Shown in pieces: positions 4,454 through 11,451 of a stretch of DNA of 64,000 bases. The stretch covers positions 1 through 64,000 of the forward strand of contig JAQVAV010000011.1 of the NCBI GenBank assembly GCA_028690665.1, in the 5' to 3' direction. The number at the start of each line of letters is the position of its first letter. Positions within the stretch are counted from its first letter, which is position 1. The notes beneath the pieces were generated by a model. It did not search any database. It saw only the letters and a list, made by a program, of their open reading frames with translations, and was not told the origin of the DNA. This DNA is from Paludibacter sp. GTDB lineage: Bacteria > Bacteroidota > Bacteroidia > Bacteroidales > Paludibacteraceae. The position numbers and the translations under genes are program-made.

Positions 4454-4651
4454 ATGTTATCAGGAAAAATTGGGACAAATGCAGGATTAGTGTACGCTGC
4501 ATTACAAAACGGAGAAATGAATGTAAAAGCTGTAAAGAAAGCGACTAAACTTGCAGAAAAGGATTTAAATCTGGCTTTGGGCTGGTTAGCGCGTGAAGGT
4601 AAGATTAAATTCAATGAAGTGGAGGCTGATCTTTTTGTTAGCCTGTCTTAA
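4454..4651 (+). CDS. Winged helix-turn-helix protein (DUF2582-like)
   Basis: The 65-residue protein begins MLSGKIGTNAGLVYAALQNG, with the pattern VKAVKKATKLAEKDLNLALGWLAREGKI in the middle. This matches the small winged-helix DUF2582 family, widespread in Bacteroidota, with a helix-turn-helix around residues 22-50 and a beta wing at the end. No partner domain is present. The cellular role is unknown; nucleic-acid binding is inferred from the fold. It is monocistronic and ends in a perfect terminator. Confidence 0.8.
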   Translation: MLSGKIGTNAGLVYAALQNGEMNVKAVKKATKLAEKDLNLALGWLAREGKIKFNEVEADLFVSLS

Positions 4652-4666
4652 TTGAGGTTGTATATT

Positions 4667-4704
4667 AAAAAAGCGGAAATGCAATCCAGTATTTCCGCTT
4701 TTTT
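4667..4704 (+). terminator. Strong terminator after the winged-helix gene
   Basis: A perfect 14-bp stem (AAAAAAGCGGAAAT and ATTTCCGCTTTTTT) with a 10-nt loop. The arms supply T-tracts on both strands. Confidence 0.9.
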
Positions 4705-4771
4705 GTTGAATTTCTGAATGATTTGACGATTTTTTTTGTGGAAAAAATTTCGGAAATCAAAAAAATGAACG

Positions 4772-4779
4772 CATCTTTG
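4772..4779 (+). promoter_or_regulatory. Probable -7 box of the tRNA promoter
   Basis: CATCTTTG, followed by CAG, is one base from TAnnTTTG and lies 36 nt before tRNA-Gly. A properly spaced -33 box is not obvious. Confidence 0.4.
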
Positions 4780-4815
4780 CAGCCGCTTTAAGAGCAAAAG
4801 ATATTTAAAATAATT

Positions 4816-4888
<73 letters not shown>

Positions 4889-4924
4889 CAAAAGTTGAAA
4901 GACTAGATACTGTTGATAAAAAAT

Positions 4925-4973
4925 CGGGACGAAGAAGTTTATCCCGCGTTATCGGGAAGTCCCGTTTTTCGCT
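4925..4973. repeat. Fossil of the tRNA-Gly 3' end inside a nested palindrome
   Basis: AGTCCCGTTTTTCGCT at 4958-4973 repeats tRNA-Gly bases 4873-4888 exactly, 85 bp downstream. Its upstream side is palindromic: CGGGAC (4925-4930) pairs with GTCCCG, and TCCCG pairs with CGGGA inside. A 16-bp copy of a tRNA 3' end is what a past site-specific integration would leave. No element remains between the copies. Confidence 0.6.
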
Positions 4974-4984
4974 TAAAGTACCCT

Positions 4985-5067
4985 GCCCGGATGGTGGAAT
5001 GGTAGACACGAAGGACTTAAAATCCTTTGGCTTCACGGCTGTGCGGGTTCAAGTCCCGCTTCGGGTA
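4985..5067 (+). tRNA. tRNA-Leu (anticodon TAA), target of the integrated element
   Basis: An 83-nt class II tRNA with acceptor GCCCGGA/TTCGGGT, anticodon stem AAGGA/TCCTT around CTTAAAA, a long variable arm (TGGCTTCACGGCTG), T-arm GCGGG-TTCAAGT-CCCGC, and discriminator A. It closely resembles known Leu-TAA tRNAs. Its last 14 bases lie within the att repeat, so the 3' end is supplied by element-junction DNA and remains intact. Confidence 0.95.
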
Positions 5068-5069
5068 CG
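5054..5069 (+). repeat. attL (16-bp direct repeat)
   Basis: TCCCGCTTCGGGTACG, covering the end of tRNA-Leu and two bases beyond. It is identical to 11436-11451. Confidence 0.85.
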
Positions 5070-5075
5070 TATCGA

Positions 5076-5118
5076 CCTCGATAAAACGCATTAAATCAGC
5101 GGTTTATCGAGGTTTTTT
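5076..5118 (+). terminator. Element-borne terminator for tRNA-Leu
   Basis: CCTCGATAAA (5076-5085) pairs with TTTATCGAGG (5103-5112), followed by T6. It lies inside the element, 8 nt beyond the tRNA end, and stops the host tRNA transcript before the element genes. Confidence 0.85.
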
Positions 5119-5124
5119 ATTTTG

Positions 5125-5145
5125 TGAGTAACAAAATAGTAACAA
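5125..5145 (+). repeat. Left integrase arm-type repeat
   Basis: A 21-bp sequence containing GAGTAACAAAATAGTAAC, identical to 11303-11323 near the other end of the element. A partial inverted copy (GTTACTATTT) is at 5195-5204. A repeat near both ends, one of them beside the int promoter, fits arm-type binding sites of a lambda-like integrase. Confidence 0.65.
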
Positions 5146-5210
5146 TGTTCAACAAAAGAAGTACAAATAGGGCTTTTATTGATAAATATGTTTCGTTACT
5201 ATTTGAGCAC

Positions 5211-5243
5211 AAAAAAAAAGCCTATCAAAATGAATTGATAGAC
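5211..5243 (-). terminator. Terminator of the element's five-gene operon
   Basis: On the minus strand, CTATCAA and TTGATAG pair (5222-5228 with 5235-5241), followed by a run of T encoded by the A-tract at 5211-5219. It lies about 35 nt after the last gene. Confidence 0.75.
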
Positions 5244-5277
5244 TGTTAAATAATTATTCAATCCGATGTACTTGTTT

Positions 5278-5529
5278 TTATTCACACTGTTTAAACGCTT
5301 CACGTCCGTTTAAGCTAATGAATAAATCTAAAGCTTCATTTATTTCTAATTCCGTAGGTATACGAACATTTGGAGAAACAATGTTAATACAAATGTTTTC
5401 ATCAATTTCTATCAAACCTTTCGGGGTAATTTTCACTTTGTCGAATTCATCAATCTGACAATAAAAAACTAAACCCTTATTTGATGGTTTTTGATTGAAT
5501 GCAAAAAGCAAAATGTTATCTCTATTCAT
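5278..5529 (-). CDS. Small protein of unknown function, last gene of element operon
   Basis: The 83-residue protein (MNRDNILLFAFNQKPSNKG..., ending GREAFKQCE) has no signal peptide, membrane segment or motif that I recognise. Its start overlaps the end of the upstream gene by 8 nt, pointing to coupled translation, and a terminator follows it. Nearby replication and DUF5681-like genes suggest a role in the element's own life cycle, but the sequence does not show one. Confidence 0.6.
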   Translation of the reverse strand: MNRDNILLFAFNQKPSNKGLVFYCQIDEFDKVKITPKGLIEIDENICINIVSPNVRIPTELEINEALDLFISLNGREAFKQCE

Positions 5530-5863
5530 TTTCTGTTTGTTTATTTAGGTTAATAATTTTATCACTAATTTTTTCTATCGCTTCATCTGATGCAGTATCT
5601 AATAATTCCTTTAAATTATCGTATTCCGCTTTGATTTGCGCTTCATACGTTGTAGATGATAGTGTAGGTATTGAGTATTTTAGCAATCCCTGCATTATAT
5701 TTAAACGTTCTATTGGTTTTACTTTAGATAAATCCTTTTCAAACAATTCGGTATTGGTTTCTAACAGTCCACGAACCCAAACTTTTAGGTCGGTTGTAGC
5801 TTTGTTTTTACTTCCAACTTTTCGCCCTGATAGGTTGTTGCATTGTCCTTTTTTTAGTCCCAT
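5522..5863 (-). CDS. DUF5681-like small phage-type protein
   Basis: The 113-residue protein starts MGLKKGQCNNLSGRKVGSKN, the basic Gly-Arg-rich N-terminus typical of DUF5681-type proteins often found in Bacteroidota phages. A helical, acidic remainder follows (KVWVRGLLETNTELFEKDL, PIERLNIMQGLLKYSIP) and a Lys/Glu-rich end. In phages such proteins often lie near packaging or replication genes and may resemble small terminase subunits, though that is not established here. It overlaps its upstream neighbour by 10 nt and its downstream neighbour by 8 nt. The length and intact frame suggest a real gene. Confidence 0.65.
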   Translation of the reverse strand: MGLKKGQCNNLSGRKVGSKNKATTDLKVWVRGLLETNTELFEKDLSKVKPIERLNIMQGLLKYSIPTLSSTTYEAQIKAEYDNLKELLDTASDEAIEKISDKIINLNKQTENE

Positions 5864-7266
5864 GATTTTTGTAGATTTTTGTTGTTTGCTAAAATTTGTT
5901 TTAAAGTTTGTAATCTCTGCAAATAAGGCAAAAATACATTTCGCCCGTTGTTTGCTTTTACCGTTGAAAGGTGGCTTTCAATAAATAGAGGTACGTTTGT
6001 AATAACAGTACATTGATTTAATCGCACGGGCTGGGCTGGTAATTCAACCGCAACAAAATAATTTTCAAGTTCTGAAATTTCAACGCTCCAATTTTGTTTT
6101 GGTTGCGGTCTGTAATCACGTTCAAAAATCGAGGGGGCACAAAAAAAATGTTTTGTTTCACTTCCACTTTCTCCACTTTTTTCTGTGGATAACTCAATTT
6201 CGGTTTTTAATGGCTCAACTATATTTTGAAGGGCACAAAAAATATCTTTGTTTTGACTTTCACAAATTTCACTTTTTGCACTTTCACGAAATAAACGCCA
6301 ATCCTGACAAATCAAATAGTCGGCAATATCGCACCCGTTCGCCCGTTCGGCTTCACTGGCTTTCCTTTCCAATAAATCGGATATCGTAAACCGTGCCCCT
6401 TTTATAGTGTTTAATTCATTGAGTTTTGAGTTCCATAAATCAAACGCTTTGCCATCGGTTGAAAGGTCGGGAAATAAAACCACGTCCCGCCCCTTTAATG
6501 CTTTACACTTGGCAACGTTTAAACTACTTAGGTTATAAACTGCAACCCAAATAAAACGCTCGGGCACGTTTGGCAATCCGAAATATAAAGTCCCGTAAAT
6601 CGCACTCTTTGGGGCTTCAACCAATGCAATCGGATTGAGCGGGTATTTATTCAATAAATGTTCGCCAAACAAACAACTTACTTTCGTTTCGTTCAACTCA
6701 TACGATGGCAACCAATCGGGTAAACGGTCGCCCCGCTGTGAGTAATGATATTTCAGTATTGAATGTAAAAAGCTGGTTTTGGTTGTGTGGTTCGTTTCAT
6801 CAAATTGTTTTACCTGAATAGCACGGATATTGTTTTGAATATCTATAAAAGGAAAGGCAACCGCCCCGCCAAAACTTGCAACCGTACCCAAATAATACAA
6901 TGAAATAACGCTCTCAATATCGCACTGGTCAAACGGAAAGGCAACCCGCCCCAATAGGTTTTGAATAAATACATTTTTAGAGTAATCGGTCAACGTACCC
7001 GCCAATACTTCAAAGGGTATTGGTGTTTGTGGTTGCGGTTTGGGTTTTGGCGTAAATACTTTATAAGGTTTGAAATCCTGGTCTTTTTCAAATGCTGGCT
7101 TGTTATGATATCCACACTTACTTTCACGGTCGCACCGCCCAAACTGTGAGGGCAAACACTCGCCCGTTACGTTGTCAATGTATCGGACAAATGTTTTTTT
7201 ACCACATTCGGGGCAAATTGTTTTTGAACTGCCTTTTTGTAGGCTGTATTTATATTGATTTTCCAT
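5854..7266 (-). CDS. Zinc-ribbon and Toprim-like replication protein (DUF6371-like)
   Basis: The 470-residue protein opens with a zinc-binding region with cysteines near residues 18, 21, 37, 45 and 51 (CPECGKKT, FGRCDRESKCGYH). This is the layout of primase-associated proteins of Bacteroidota mobile elements. The middle carries Toprim-like features: ALVEAPKSAIYG with the conserved Glu, and VVLFPDLSTDGKAF with the acidic pair. The C-terminal third shows no motif. It probably works with the adjacent D5-type helicase in initiating or priming element replication. One base separates the two genes. A DUF6371 assignment is likely but from memory. Confidence 0.75.
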   Translation of the reverse strand: MENQYKYSLQKGSSKTICPECGKKTFVRYIDNVTGECLPSQFGRCDRESKCGYHNKPAFEKDQDFKPYKVFTPKPKPQPQTPIPFEVLAGTLTDYSKNVFIQNLLGRVAFPFDQCDIESVISLYYLGTVASFGGAVAFPFIDIQNNIRAIQVKQFDETNHTTKTSFLHSILKYHYSQRGDRLPDWLPSYELNETKVSCLFGEHLLNKYPLNPIALVEAPKSAIYGTLYFGLPNVPERFIWVAVYNLSSLNVAKCKALKGRDVVLFPDLSTDGKAFDLWNSKLNELNTIKGARFTISDLLERKASEAERANGCDIADYLICQDWRLFRESAKSEICESQNKDIFCALQNIVEPLKTEIELSTEKSGESGSETKHFFCAPSIFERDYRPQPKQNWSVEISELENYFVAVELPAQPVRLNQCTVITNVPLFIESHLSTVKANNGRNVFLPYLQRLQTLKQILANNKNLQKSWD

Positions 7267-7267
7267 T

Positions 7268-8935
7268 TCAATATGGTGTGTAATTTTTACTCAAATAAGC
7301 AACCCATCCAACATTCAACTTACTAATAGTTATTTTTAAATGTTCTAAACGTTTTTTGAAATTTACATTTTTCACAAATTGACAACCATCTCTAATACAG
7401 AAATTTTTATAATCATTGTACAGTATTGGAATTGTAATATATTCAATAGCACTTGGGAAATACTCATTTTCATTAATGAATTGATTTACACTATCGCTTT
7501 CAAGTTCGTATTGTTTACGGGCGTTATTTACTGCCTCGCTTTGAGTAAATGCCTTTTGTTCTAATAATCGGTTAAGTCCTAACAGTACCCAATTAAAAAC
7601 GCCTGAAAGTTCCCCCTCAATTATCTTTTTGCTTAGCTCCCTGTCTTGTTCGTGCTCGGGTATTGTTTGTTCAAAATTCACAATCATAAATCGCCTGAAA
7701 TAAGCGTTTGTTTGTTCTGCATTTTTTGGCAATTCATTTGCATTAAACATTAATTTTGCGTAATCTGTCATATTAAACGGTTGCCCATAAGGTAAACGGG
7801 CTTGCATCTTTTCGCCTGAAATCAATTGTTTTGTTTTGTCCGATGCCGCTTGGTTTACATTCAACTCACTTGCATAGTTGAGTAATTTATTTACTATCAT
7901 AGCTCTAAAATACCCCTCTTTGTCGGTCAAACTTTCCAAACTATAACCGCTCACATTTTCGTTACCTAACAAAGCGTTTATAATGTCAAAAAATACACTT
8001 TTCCCATTTGCACCGCCCCCGAACAATATCAATGCTTTCTCAAATTTCATTCGGGCAACGGGTATAAATACGCTGCCTATAAATTCAGCTAAAATATATT
8101 GCCTTTGTTGGTCGGGTTGGACTTGGTTTAAATACCTTTCAAACAATGGGGCTGTGGCGTTCGGTTCGTACGAAAAGGGCAATTGATAAGTAAGAAAATC
8201 AATACTATTAAACGGTCTTAATTTGCGTTCTGTGGGTGTTATTTCAAAAGTCCCATTTTGTAAGTTTATCAATACAATATCTTTGTTGCGTTCGGGCTTT
8301 GGCAAATAGCTTGTTGAAATAAATTGTTTGAATAATGTATCTCTGAACTCATGCCATCGACTTACAAAACGGGTAACGCCCATTTGTTCGGCTGCCTGAC
8401 CTAAAAAAGCCTGAAACGCCTCTTTTTCAATGTTTGCCCAATACGCCCCATTATACAAATAAATGAAATCATTGTTTTTGCAAATACCCCATTTGTTGCG
8501 GTCTGCTATATTCAGCACATTTTCAATACTTAAAATAGCAAAGTGTTTTTGAGTTAATTTAAAACTGTTGAGCTGCTTTTGTATCTCTTTGAGTTCGCCC
8601 TCAACAATAGCATTTTTCTTATAACTGCCATCGGGGTTTGTGAGCTGGCTTTGTAGTTCCAAACATTTTGCTCTTAACTCTTCAATTCCGTTAAATGCTG
8701 CCTTTTCAAAATCAAAAGGCTCAATACATTTCAATAGTTCGCCCAAAATTGCCCCGTGTTCAATTGGTTCGGGTTTTTTTGTCAAATCTGAAACGTGTTT
8801 TTTTATATCCGTTGCGGTCAAGCTGTCAAATTTCGGGCTTATAACTTTGTTATTTGCCTTATTATCACTATCTTTGCTCAACGCTTCGGGGGTGGTGGCT
8901 GTGGTGGTCGCTGCCTCTGTTTGTTTTAGTTCCAT
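7268..8935 (-). CDS. D5/P4-type primase-helicase of the element
   Basis: The 555-residue protein has a low-complexity Thr/Ala-rich N-terminus, a D5 N-terminal-like region (about 150-290, including YLYNGAYWANIEKEAF) and an SF3-type ATPase. The ATPase has Walker A GGGANGKS at 306-313, an acidic segment NKLLNYASELN, and MFNANELPKNAEQTNAYFRRF matching the sensor region. The end (ITIPILYNDYKNFC) resembles a primase C-terminal or winged-helix domain. Such proteins unwind origins of phages, plasmids and P4-like satellites. Its start shares a base with the stop of the HTH gene (TAATG). Confidence 0.85.
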   Translation of the reverse strand: MELKQTEAATTTATTPEALSKDSDNKANNKVISPKFDSLTATDIKKHVSDLTKKPEPIEHGAILGELLKCIEPFDFEKAAFNGIEELRAKCLELQSQLTNPDGSYKKNAIVEGELKEIQKQLNSFKLTQKHFAILSIENVLNIADRNKWGICKNNDFIYLYNGAYWANIEKEAFQAFLGQAAEQMGVTRFVSRWHEFRDTLFKQFISTSYLPKPERNKDIVLINLQNGTFEITPTERKLRPFNSIDFLTYQLPFSYEPNATAPLFERYLNQVQPDQQRQYILAEFIGSVFIPVARMKFEKALILFGGGANGKSVFFDIINALLGNENVSGYSLESLTDKEGYFRAMIVNKLLNYASELNVNQAASDKTKQLISGEKMQARLPYGQPFNMTDYAKLMFNANELPKNAEQTNAYFRRFMIVNFEQTIPEHEQDRELSKKIIEGELSGVFNWVLLGLNRLLEQKAFTQSEAVNNARKQYELESDSVNQFINENEYFPSAIEYITIPILYNDYKNFCIRDGCQFVKNVNFKKRLEHLKITISKLNVGWVAYLSKNYTPY

Positions 8936-9180
8936 TATTTCGCCCCCTTATGTTTACCCGTTACAACGTACGTGCTGGCTGCCTCTTCAATTTCGGATTG
9001 AGGTTTTACTCTTACACTTAACAAATACGCTTCCAACTCTTCACGGTCAAAAAATATCATTTTTCCGTTTGGTTTGTAGTGAGAAATTAATTTTTGAGAG
9101 GTCATTTTGTACAAACAACTTTTACTCATACCCATGTAGGCTGCTGCCTCTTCAAATGTCAATACTTTTTTAGTTTCCAT
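8935..9180 (-). CDS. Excisionase-like HTH protein
   Basis: The 81-residue protein carries a MerR/AlpA-like HTH_17 domain: LTFEEAAAYMGMSKSCLYKMTSQKLISHYKPNGKMIFFDREELEAYLL. This is the standard form of excisionase or regulatory proteins encoded beside integrases in Bacteroidota elements. It is first in the five-gene operon. It may promote excision with the integrase, repress the operon, or both. Confidence 0.8.
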   Translation of the reverse strand: METKKVLTFEEAAAYMGMSKSCLYKMTSQKLISHYKPNGKMIFFDREELEAYLLSVRVKPQSEIEEAASTYVVTGKHKGAK

Positions 9181-9378
9181 TTTTTTTACTTATTACAATT
9201 TGATTAATAAGCTCGGGGCGTGCACTCCCGTTGCTGGTTTGTTTTGATTAATCATGCTGCAAAGTTTGGCAAATAAAGTAAAAAAAAGAAAATAGGGTGT
9301 TTTTGTAGCTTTTATATTTCAGTATATCAATTGTTTATGTATGTTTCGGGGGTTTTTTATAGGGGATTTTAAGGGGAT

Positions 9379-9406
9379 AAAAAAAAGAGGGCGAAAAGCC
9401 CCCTTT
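9379..9406 (-). terminator. Terminator after the integrase unit
   Basis: On the minus strand, a GC-rich hairpin (AAAGGGGGC, TTTTC, GCCCTC, with one mismatch) is followed by a run of eight or more T. It lies 50 nt after the 207-codon gene. The rest of 9181-9457 is AT-rich and should hold the promoter of the excisionase-primase operon, but no box was convincing. Confidence 0.7.
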
Positions 9407-9457
9407 GTGTAAAAAGTGTAAAACGTGAATCTCAAAACAAACATTATTTTTGTGCCT

Positions 9458-10081
9458 CTATATTTTTTTTCGCTCTAAAATTCCATATTTCGATATCAAT
9501 TTATTCATTTCATTTCTGTAATGGCTTGGGCGTTTGTCTTTTAATGGTTCTATATTCCAATAGATTGCAAGTTTATCAACCAATTCATTAAATTTTACAG
9601 TAGGGTTGAAAATTTTATTTTCATGTAATGCCAAACACACAGCCCCAAAAGTATTTTTTTTAGTCAAATCAAAAGAGGTTCTAATTTCATACAAATAATC
9701 ATGTAAGTGATTTTCATTTTTTGGAATGTGTTTGTAAATCTTTGGTTCGTCAATTGCCTTTCGCCTTTGTTCGGGCGTGAGGTTCGTTTCTAATTGTTTG
9801 GCTGGGGCTTGTATATTCAAGTCCTGCAAATCTAAAATAGCTTTTCTTAAAATTTCCATACAATCACGGTCATGTATTTCATTTATTTCCAAAAATTCTT
9901 CTTCAAAATGCTTTAATTCCTCTTTTAGTTTACCTAAATAACCTATTTTTCCGTATCTGTGGGCTTTGGCTTCGTACCTAAAAAAATCTGCAATTGGTAC
10001 ACCATATTTTTCTTGTTTAAATGCTTTCTCTACTTCATAATCAAAGTAACGAGTTCCACCATTTTCGTATTTTGTTTCCAT
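9458..10081 (-). CDS. Unknown protein co-transcribed with the integrase
   Basis: The 207-residue protein begins METKYENGGTRYFDYEVEKAF. It has a charged helical middle (KLKEELKHFEEEFLEINE) and ends KYGILERKKI. It has no signal peptide or membrane helix and I do not recognise a family. The C-terminal third (PTVKFNELVDKLAIYWNIEPLKDKRPSHYRNEMNKLISKYG) has the look of a small DNA-binding or regulatory domain seen in mobile-element proteins such as RteC-like regulators, but this is weak. It starts 21 nt after the int stop and precedes a terminator, so it forms a two-gene unit with int. Confidence 0.6.
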   Translation of the reverse strand: METKYENGGTRYFDYEVEKAFKQEKYGVPIADFFRYEAKAHRYGKIGYLGKLKEELKHFEEEFLEINEIHDRDCMEILRKAILDLQDLNIQAPAKQLETNLTPEQRRKAIDEPKIYKHIPKNENHLHDYLYEIRTSFDLTKKNTFGAVCLALHENKIFNPTVKFNELVDKLAIYWNIEPLKDKRPSHYRNEMNKLISKYGILERKKI

Positions 10082-10102
10082 ATTTCACGTTTTATTCACG
10101 TT

Positions 10103-11239
10103 TTAAATTTCAAAAGTTGGTAAACTGTTTATTGCTTGTTCTTTGAGGCTGTCAACCGCTCGGGTGTACTTTTCAGTATGTTTTAACCCTGAATGTCCTA
10201 AAAGGCTGGCAACGGTCTTAATGTTCGCCCCGTTGTTTAATATATTGACTGCAAAAGAATGTCGCCCGCAATGCCATGTAATATGCTTATCAATACCCGC
10301 TTTACTTACCCAATGTTTCAAAGCTTTTAAACACATTGTTTGGCTGGGCAAATCAAATATAAATGTATCTTTTTCGGGCTTGTCTCCAATTAATGAAAGT
10401 AAACCATCGTTTAGGGGTATGTTTACCCAACTGGTTGAGCTTTTGCCTTTGGTTTTGGCTTGGTTAAATTTCAATATCTTATTTGAATAATCCACATCGT
10501 TGTATTTCAATTCTATAATATCACAAAACCTTATTCCCGTATAAAGGGTAAAAATAAACGCCCGCCTTGTATTGAGGTTTTGTTCGGGGTAACGTGTACT
10601 AATTAGTTTTTTCATTTCGTCAACGCTCAATATGTCTTTAGTGAGGGCGTTTTCGTCAACCTTACAAACAACCCCCGTGCACGGATTTTTTGATATTACA
10701 TTGTGCTCAACTGCATACTTAATCACTTTTTTAAAGCGTTTGTAAAAAGTCAACGCCCCCTCGCCCGTGCTTTTACTTTCCAAATACTCAACAAATGAAA
10801 TCATCATATCTTTTGTAAGTTGGTCGGGTTTGATATTGGTTTTATATTGAGGGTAAAACTCTTTTAAGAAATCTTTGAAACGTTCAAAAGATGCTTTTAT
10901 CATTCGTATATCGGCTTTTGTATATTTGTCAATATAAGTTTGATAATAATCTAAAAAGTTTATTCGTTTGGTGTTGGGGGAAATTTGCCCGTGTGTTAAG
11001 TGGTTGAGGTCGCTTTCTTTTTGGGTTCTTATCTTTTCGGCCAATTCTAATACTTCACGGTTTGCCTCTCTTTCAATAGGGGTTCGGGCTTTTGTATTTA
11101 CATAAAGTTTCAAAAACTCATAAGTTCGTGTGCCATCTCGGTAAATATCCAAATATAAACTTACATTTCCATTTGTCAACGCCTTTTCTCTTAGAATAAC
11201 GTTGTTCTTTTTAGTCCCTTTGCGGTTAAGTGTGCTCAT
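10103..11239 (-). CDS. int: Tyrosine recombinase (integrase) of the element
   Basis: The frame is open from 11323, but the ATG at 11239 (MSTLNRKGTKKNN) is preferred because a promoter lies at 11268-11299, inside the longer frame. The 378-residue product has the usual Bacteroidota integrase plan. An arm-binding N-terminus is followed by a SAM-like core-binding domain (about 100-200). The catalytic domain has TGIRFCDIIEL (first Arg), HITWHCGRHSFAVNIL (His-xx-Arg) and LLGHSGLKHTEKYTRAV (His and the nucleophilic Tyr). All main catalytic residues are visible. It should recombine the 16-bp att site in tRNA-Leu. It lies next to attR, as is common. Confidence 0.92.
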   Translation of the reverse strand: MSTLNRKGTKKNNVILREKALTNGNVSLYLDIYRDGTRTYEFLKLYVNTKARTPIEREANREVLELAEKIRTQKESDLNHLTHGQISPNTKRINFLDYYQTYIDKYTKADIRMIKASFERFKDFLKEFYPQYKTNIKPDQLTKDMMISFVEYLESKSTGEGALTFYKRFKKVIKYAVEHNVISKNPCTGVVCKVDENALTKDILSVDEMKKLISTRYPEQNLNTRRAFIFTLYTGIRFCDIIELKYNDVDYSNKILKFNQAKTKGKSSTSWVNIPLNDGLLSLIGDKPEKDTFIFDLPSQTMCLKALKHWVSKAGIDKHITWHCGRHSFAVNILNNGANIKTVASLLGHSGLKHTEKYTRAVDSLKEQAINSLPTFEI

Positions 11240-11267
11240 GTTATTTACCCTTGTTTGTTTATACTTG

Positions 11268-11299
11268 CAAATGTAGTAACAAAAAGGGTACAAAACAAA
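11268..11299 (-). promoter_or_regulatory. Promoter of int
   Basis: On the minus strand TACATTTG (11275-11268) matches TAnnTTTG exactly. A TTTG box (11299-11296) lies 20 bp upstream. The right arm-type repeat begins only 4 bp beyond the -33 box, so integrase binding there could repress int. Confidence 0.65.
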
Positions 11300-11302
11300 T
11301 TT

Positions 11303-11323
11303 TGAGTAACAAAATAGTAACAA
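11303..11323 (+). repeat. Right integrase arm-type repeat
   Basis: Identical over 21 bp to 5125-5145 and in the same orientation. It directly abuts the int promoter. Confidence 0.65.
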
Positions 11324-11435
11324 AGTAACACGAAATAAGTGAAAATATCTGAAATCAAAAGAAAGTAAAAATCATAAACAACTGAATCATAATATATATA
11401 GCTTTCCTATTTTTGCCTTTATTGGTCGGTTGTGT

Positions 11436-11451
11436 TCCCGCTTCGGGTACG
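11436..11451 (+). repeat. attR (16-bp direct repeat)
   Basis: TCCCGCTTCGGGTACG, an exact copy of the tRNA-Leu end at 5054-5069. The bases on either side differ, which defines the crossover segment. Confidence 0.85.

Follow-up and report, generated by a model that had tools for sequence, protein, structure and literature searches.

A 6.4-kb integrative element at a tRNA-Leu gene of Paludibacter sp. with paired iterons and no recognisable transfer genes: a possible phage satellite

How an element of little more than 6 kb could move between chromosomes without any recognisable gene for its own transfer is the question raised by a locus in Paludibacter sp. (Bacteroidota; assembly GCA_028690665.1, contig JAQVAV010000011.1). 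The window analysed here is the whole stretch of 64,000 nt (positions 1 to 64,000, forward strand), taken from a genome (G000) of 4.05 Mb that is 99.9% complete, and the element occupies nt 5054–11451 (6,398 bp). It is very probably an intact integrative element, mobile and self-replicating but without recognisable transfer genes, and by comparative evidence it looks active. A first-pass annotation had suggested a possible phage satellite. Carriage by a phage is also the leading single reading of the current study, at a probability of roughly 0.45, and is unproved.

The first-pass annotation described both att ends as resolved, and this is borne out. The 16-bp core TCCCGCTTCGGGTACG occurs exactly twice in the window, at nt 5054–5069 (attL, plus strand) and nt 11436–11451 (attR, plus strand), also when two mismatches are allowed, while 100 shuffles of the window gave no match. 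The left core overlaps the 3' end of the integration target, tRNA-Leu(UAA) (nt 4985–5068, plus strand; ARAGORN, Rfam), and a core with 0–1 mismatch is present at the same tRNA in six other genomes of the genus. Just inside both ends are identical 20-nt arm-type repeats, GAGTAACAAAATAGTAACAA (nt 5126–5145 and 11304–11323, both plus strand; shuffle mean 0.01), which fit the Arm-DNA-bind domain of the integrase. Behind the left core the element carries a hairpin and T-run (nt 5075–5119, plus strand), proposed to be a replacement terminator of tRNA-Leu. Folding of nt 5069–5125 gave a z-score of -7.6, and a hairpin was present at the equivalent place in 7 of 7 att-bounded elements folded (those folds without shuffle control), so that each element apparently gives the tRNA back its end as well as a terminator. 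No unoccupied site with the window's own flank was found; the whole right flank is matched only by G000 and G017, both occupied. In four other genomes (G045, G032, G029, G010) a similar terminator (75–83% identity) follows the tRNA end and no integrase of the element's family was found at E 1e-30, a weak indication that these sites are perhaps unoccupied.

Seven open reading frames (ORFs) lie between the cores, all on the minus strand. The tyrosine integrase (nt 10103–11239; Arm-DNA-bind_5, SAM_5, Phage_integrase) has its catalytic motifs and exceeds the cut-offs of PF00589 (83.1 bits against 27.1), PF13102 and PF17293, as expected from the first-pass annotation. It is followed after 21 bp by a 207-aa ORF (nt 9458–10081), which differs between relatives. 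Next comes an HTH_17 protein of excisionase/AlpA type (nt 8935–9180; PF12728, 46.7 bits against 27), earlier called excisionase-like. The fourth gene (nt 7268–8935) encodes a D5_N/DUF5906 (SF3-type) helicase with the Walker A motif GGGANGKS (PF19263, 68 bits against 27.6; TIGR01613); its closest solved chain, 7ola, is listed as a DNA primase, and we take it to be PriRep1 of SaPI5. Annotation of this protein as a D5 primase-helicase holds for the helicase but not for the primase part, as the primase-named models (TIGR01613 and PHROGs) cover only the helicase part and Pfam gives no primase domain. The adjoining gene (nt 5854–7266; Zn_ribbon_16, DUF6371 with the RNAP/Toprim core, DUF6965) had been labelled Toprim-like. 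The core is indeed Toprim-like, and by fold the protein is the element's primase, of DnaG/T7-gp4-like type; this assignment is one of the firmer new points. A 113-aa helical protein (nt 5522–5863) is predicted to form five helices (mean pLDDT 78.9, pTM 0.36). It gives no Pfam DUF5681 match of its own; its description as DUF5681-like comes from alignments and from relatives, one of which matches below cut-off (L090, E 0.0012), and PF18932 is present in several database homologues. Last, in a cargo position, is an 83-aa ORF (nt 5278–5529) with no family above cut-off. The integrase, HTH_17, helicase and primase genes are evidently under purifying selection, with dN/dS values of 0.07–0.24 in 11 comparisons; the 207-aa ORF is looser (0.48 against L036). 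This ORF, the iterons described below and the element-borne terminator are features beyond those previously noted. No relaxase, type IV secretion, coupling, terminase or structural family matched any of the seven ORFs (Pfam, PHROGs and TIGRFAM-type profile scans), in agreement with the first-pass annotation, which had left room for a relaxase among the ORFs without function.

That annotation had also proposed a search for the same gene order at tRNA-Leu in other genomes. An integrase relative (at least 72% identity over at least 338 residues in the genome-wide search; by blastp the same proteins give 65–69% for three of them) is present in 10 of 48 genus genomes, with a further contig-end fragment in G009. 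At least seven of the 48, the window's included (G000, G003, G006, G034, G040, G017 and G027), have an element of 4.2 to 9.1 kb between paired cores at tRNA-Leu. The first five share the HTH_17 and primase type of the window, but in G003 a different ATPase replaces the D5 helicase; it has no Pfam match over cut-off, a PHROG primase/helicase match at E 1.4e-4, and by our reading is RepA-like. G017 and G027 carry a collinear Rep instead (Phage_CRI by Pfam for G027), G026, which is not among the seven with paired cores, has a BT4734/DUF3987 protein, and the related element L091 carries PF13148. The DUF5681-like gene recurs with these different replication modules (in G017 assigned by motif, by eye), and was not found in L036. 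The flanks of G017 are 99.2% (796 bp) and 99.6% (5,479 bp) identical to those of the window and yet enclose a different element, which indicates that the occupant of the tRNA-Leu site has been exchanged recently. Exchange of replication modules at one site is among the firmer new points that the comparison suggests. A further relative, contig L003 of a genome labelled Gracilibacteria, has a 99-bp terminal overlap and would form a circle of 7,177 bp, with a junction like the attP predicted for the window.

A second firmer point concerns a repeat of about 51 nt, made up of GTG and A-runs followed by AAAACAAAC and then TTATTTTTG, which is present in three copies in the window. Two lie in the primase linker (nt 6132–6183, minus strand, found by profile and pattern; nt 6229–6282, minus strand, found by profile) and the third, in opposite orientation, between the 207-aa ORF and the HTH_17 gene (nt 9403–9459, plus strand, profile and pattern). 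When a profile of these copies was run on 13 sequences, L002, L003, L034, L035, L036 and L093 matched at E ≤ 1.3e-5, and any other matches were at E ≥ 0.08. A second profile, made from 18 of those copies and run on 166 records (1.23 Mb), returned the same elements and no other at E ≤ 0.01, its further rows being overlapping loci of the same five genomes. Used as a pattern with up to two mismatches, the iteron was found in 5 of 48 genus genomes, every time in both orientations, and its reversed control matched none; L093 (G041), which is more diverged and truncated by the contig end, was missed. Shuffling 200 elements in two-base blocks produced a single match at E ≤ 1, of 14.6 bits versus 43–47 bits for the window copies. 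In six complete elements the clusters face outward, with HTH_17, helicase and primase core in between. Clusters separated by kilobases resemble the layout of ori1 and crr of P4.

Two other accounts of the iterons were rejected. They are not a feature of the helicase: L034 keeps them with its other ATPase, and in L045 and L142, where the helicase is present, any matches are weak (E about 0.5 or higher). Nor are they a coding artefact, since the intergenic copy is inverted relative to those within the primase gene. Their persistence where the helicase has been replaced argues that the helicase is not their likely reader. The HTH_17 proteins of six iteron-bearing relatives are 86–93% identical to that of the window, versus 38–52% in three iteron-free elements; the integrase also tracks the iterons, less sharply (75–93% versus 65–69%). 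L093 shares HTH_17 and integrase, while the start of its replication protein is unlike the window's genes. The HTH_17 protein is therefore proposed as the putative iteron binder, on the grounds that it co-occurs with the iterons and that these outlast a helicase swap. Paired 51-nt iterons that go with HTH_17 appear to be new here.

Taken together, these parts would fit an element that excises from the chromosome, replicates and is then carried as a passenger. The HTH_17 protein would bind the iterons and activate excision and replication, like AlpA of the phage-inducible chromosomal minimalist islands (PICMIs); the SF3-type helicase would load at the iterons and the DnaG-type primase would prime, giving multimeric DNA; and packaging would be left to a helper which, as with PICMIs, is most likely to be an infecting phage. 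What the sequence itself supports is the att structure, together with the circular relative with the expected attP, the presence of helicase and primase, and the specific iteron in two outward-facing clusters; the roles just given to the HTH_17 protein, helicase, primase and helper are inferred. More tentatively, the element may belong to a family of minimal satellites of Bacteroidota, with a Tn4555-like backbone lacking the mobilisation gene. Its regulation and replication would run through paired iteron clusters bound by HTH_17, its replication module would be open to exchange (SF3 helicase, another ATPase, CRI rolling-circle Rep or DUF3987), and larger cousins would bear defence cargo.

One argument for a phage comes from the PICMIs of Vibrionaceae. 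Their model, in the part of PMC10803314 used here, needs an integrase, AlpA/HTH_17 (PF05930 or PF12728), DUF3987 or DUF5906, and Fis. The three genes other than fis are present in the window over Pfam cut-off (PF00589, PF12728, PF19263), whereas PF02954 has no match in the seven ORFs and the site is tRNA-Leu rather than fis. PICMI115 is 6,110 bp long and has no identified packaging gene, yet it is carried in concatemeric form by a virulent phage, so such a gene set can suffice. The likeness extends to a size of about 6 kb, an int gene with an ORF beside it, HTH_17/AlpA, a DUF5906 or DUF3987 gene, and no recognised packaging or capsid genes. Features of the window that differ are the Bacteroidota host, the separate DnaG-type primase and the iterons; also, the ORF after int overlaps int in 21 of 35 PICMI subfamilies but stands apart from it in the window. 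More generally the element has integrase and replication genes and no complete virion gene set, as satellites do. It shares an SF3/D5-type helicase with the P4 and SaPI replicons, but its helicase has no detected primase domain, it has a separate DnaG-type primase, and no satellite packaging gene was recognised. PICIs carry a small terminase or another packaging-redirection gene. No family of this type matched the seven ORFs, and the 113-aa model gave no significant Foldseek match (PDB, BFVD).

The 113-aa protein was considered as a small terminase. Foldseek of the model against PDB and BFVD returned nothing at E ≤ 0.001, which does not exclude the idea and leaves nothing in its support. Among 20 regions around DUF5681-like genes (from 19 of the 27 genomes with a match, judged by eye and without a terminase profile), none was seen to have a large terminase subunit beside the gene, though L139 lies near tail-like genes. 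The only phage match adjoins an integrase. Mass spectrometry of the proteome of a Salmonella phage has shown a 139-aa DUF5681 protein (PMC8954984, in part), a lead judged too weak to use. Seven DUF5681-like genes (L132, L136, L137, L140, L141, L146, L147) stand apart, with no such integrase detected in the stretch shown.

Several observations weigh against a phage vehicle. No helper phage, packaging gene or packaging signal was found (cos/pac sites were not searched). In G000 neither a phage nor a conjugative helper appears to be resident by the families used, which were not all those available: PF04466 is absent from all 10 integrase-bearing genomes, G000 included; PF03237 occurs only in G027; and phrog_2 matches six of the 10, strongly only in G027 (E 2.5e-26), G000 having one weak match broken by stops. 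The DUF5681-like model, as said, has no significant structural match. The helicase has no relative in IMG/VR (close relatives only were sought), nor has the exact iteron pattern a match there. D5-type helicase relatives occur in 753 phage and 393 plasmid records, all below 60% identity, and being common in both, the helicase points to no vehicle. The integrase lineage also carries rolling-circle or DUF3987 modules, which fit plasmid-like elements too, and the terminal overlap of L003 could equally reflect a tandem array. Contigs from human faeces labelled 'Bacteriophage sp.' share distant integrases, DUF6371 or helicase, and were discarded as evidence of packaging: of the seven read (nine fetched), two have relaxases (L053, L055) and one (L176) is chromosome-like, with an mnmE-like gene by eye. 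On balance the satellite proposal is partly supported: in its favour are the PICMI-like genes, the size close to that of PICMI115 and the lack of relaxase or conjugation families; against it, or neutral, are the missing helper and packaging gene, the lack of a close helicase relative in IMG/VR and a gene order shared with Tn4555.

That gene order leads to the main rival, a somewhat unlikely one in our estimate, that this is a relaxase-free (iOriT type) integrative mobilisable element (IME) of the Tn4555 lineage, which would excise, replicate and have its oriT read by a relaxase that a conjugative or mobilisable helper supplies. The circular record CP103138.1, taken for Tn4555 from its genes, carries integrase, a further ORF, excisionase, AAA ATPase, DUF6371 and mobilisation protein; a gene block of this name appears in the part of PMC13183296 used. 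Both elements thus have integrase, accessory ORF, excisionase-family protein, helicase-type ATPase, DUF6371 primase (31% identical) and cargo in the same order. The window differs in having no mobilisation gene, a D5 helicase for the AAA ATPase and the DUF5681-like gene in the mob place. As in NBU1 and MTnPi4 of Bacteroidales, a tyrosine integrase is combined with the tRNA-Leu 3' end, though NBU1 encodes a MobP relaxase and none was found in the window element (PMC5704250, in part). Relaxase genes lie within 5 kb of DUF6371 at 3 of 26 places, representing two loci (G038:C6 and G084:C37); the places come from 16 of 17 genomes searched for PF03432, two matches to the C-terminal domain only being left out, and further cases may lie beyond contig ends or involve other relaxase families. 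Relaxases were also seen in gut contigs L053 (Mob_Pre) and L055 (PF03432). Against relaxase supply in trans, PF03432, the one relaxase family searched across whole genomes, is absent from all five that have an element of this type, G000 included, and is present in G017, whose tRNA-Leu site holds a different element; TIGR03783 is likewise absent from 8 of the 10 integrase-bearing genomes, G000 among them. In the portion consulted of the 2017 IME review, the few IMEs known from Bacteroidetes each encode a relaxase (PMC5704250). A PICMI-like element and a relaxase-free IME cannot be told apart by gene content.

An integrative plasmid with no dedicated route, which excises, replicates and is spread by transformation, generalised transduction or vesicles, is in our view unlikely. 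The first-pass annotation named plasmid replication without a helper as incompatible with a satellite, and a circular form does exist for the relative L003. A distant member of a 206-aa protein family of four relatives (see below) is encoded by the 6,969-bp circular plasmid pHsw3 of Hymenobacter. The plasmid also encodes a second protein with a distant likeness to the CRI Rep (E 4e-5, in a comparison with only a few ORFs) and no Pfam match. Replication modules are exchanged between relatives, and natural competence moves satellites in S. thermophilus, according to the part of PMC13376191 used. On the other hand, that different species hold different elements at the one tRNA site would suggest efficient transfer. 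A prophage or conjugative element that has decayed and is no longer mobile could account for the small size and the lack of transfer families but is highly improbable: att and arm sites are paired, the motifs are intact and dN/dS is low, and there are collinear relatives in other genomes as well as one circular relative.

If the element is carried by a phage, it would be a satellite from Bacteroidota with the PICMI gene set outside Vibrionaceae; none was found described for this phylum in open-licence PubMed Central papers, as far as the parts consulted go (PMC11389934 included). If instead a relaxase acts in trans, it would represent a relaxase-free IME type that the consulted portion of the IME review does not describe for Bacteroidetes (PMC5704250). 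With either vehicle, elements that are otherwise comparable have naturally swapped their replication modules at a single tRNA-Leu site, and the pairing of iterons with HTH_17 can be tested directly.

Larger DUF6371-type loci of related genomes (L039, L043, L044, L045, L048) contain restriction-modification, DISARM-like, Ssp or DUF262-like genes, likely to be mobile defence cargo. All nine defence-like genes at these five loci match PADLOC models at E ≤ 1e-5, most strongly type IIG and type III modification enzymes, DrmD, SspC and SspD, two being weak (E 7e-9 and 1.6e-10). Defence genes in some distant cousins count in favour of the leading reading, though the nine were chosen by eye.

A 206-aa family lies 3' of the replication genes in four relatives (L003 6369–6989, L034 10814–11434, L035 9010–9642, L036 8602–9216). 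It has 1297 homologues, no Pfam match over cut-off in the member scanned, no phage match and two IMG/VR loci. One IMG/VR element, L152 (3300029998_000092), has an integrase-like ORF, HTH_17, a Rep-like ORF and the 206-aa family, and adjoins a Mu-like phage (by eye). The human gut record L173 (MT835758.1) has a helicase relative (48%) in an integrase element that shows no obvious relaxase; behind the helicase comes a 708-aa OLD-type ATPase-like protein (by eye). Two separate genomes have the primase gene as two overlapping frames with the break at the linker (L002 10613–12110, L036 9228–10734), which may be a natural split, a frameshift or an assembly error. The G003 element (L034 4684–11701; also L084) has a diverged integrase N-terminus and tRNA-side repeats GTGTACTAAAGGTGTAC in place of GTAACAAA, which suggests that arm-binding domain and arm sites change together.

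G000 harbours a second related element, L099 (about 4647–10902; C11 265000–284000), adjoining an mnmE-like gene named by eye. It has an integrase 35% identical, HTH_17, a Phage_CRI Rep, a DUF5681-like protein and several ORFs of no assigned family, among which a Pfam scan placed only DUF3853 over cut-off; an exact search found no att repeat. The gut contig L176, with a 72% identical integrase, likewise lies beside an mnmE-like gene (by eye). Finally, in the window a copy of the tRNA-Gly 3' end (95% over 20 nt) is found 85 bp downstream (nt 4873–4892 and 4958–4977), possibly the scar of an earlier integration.

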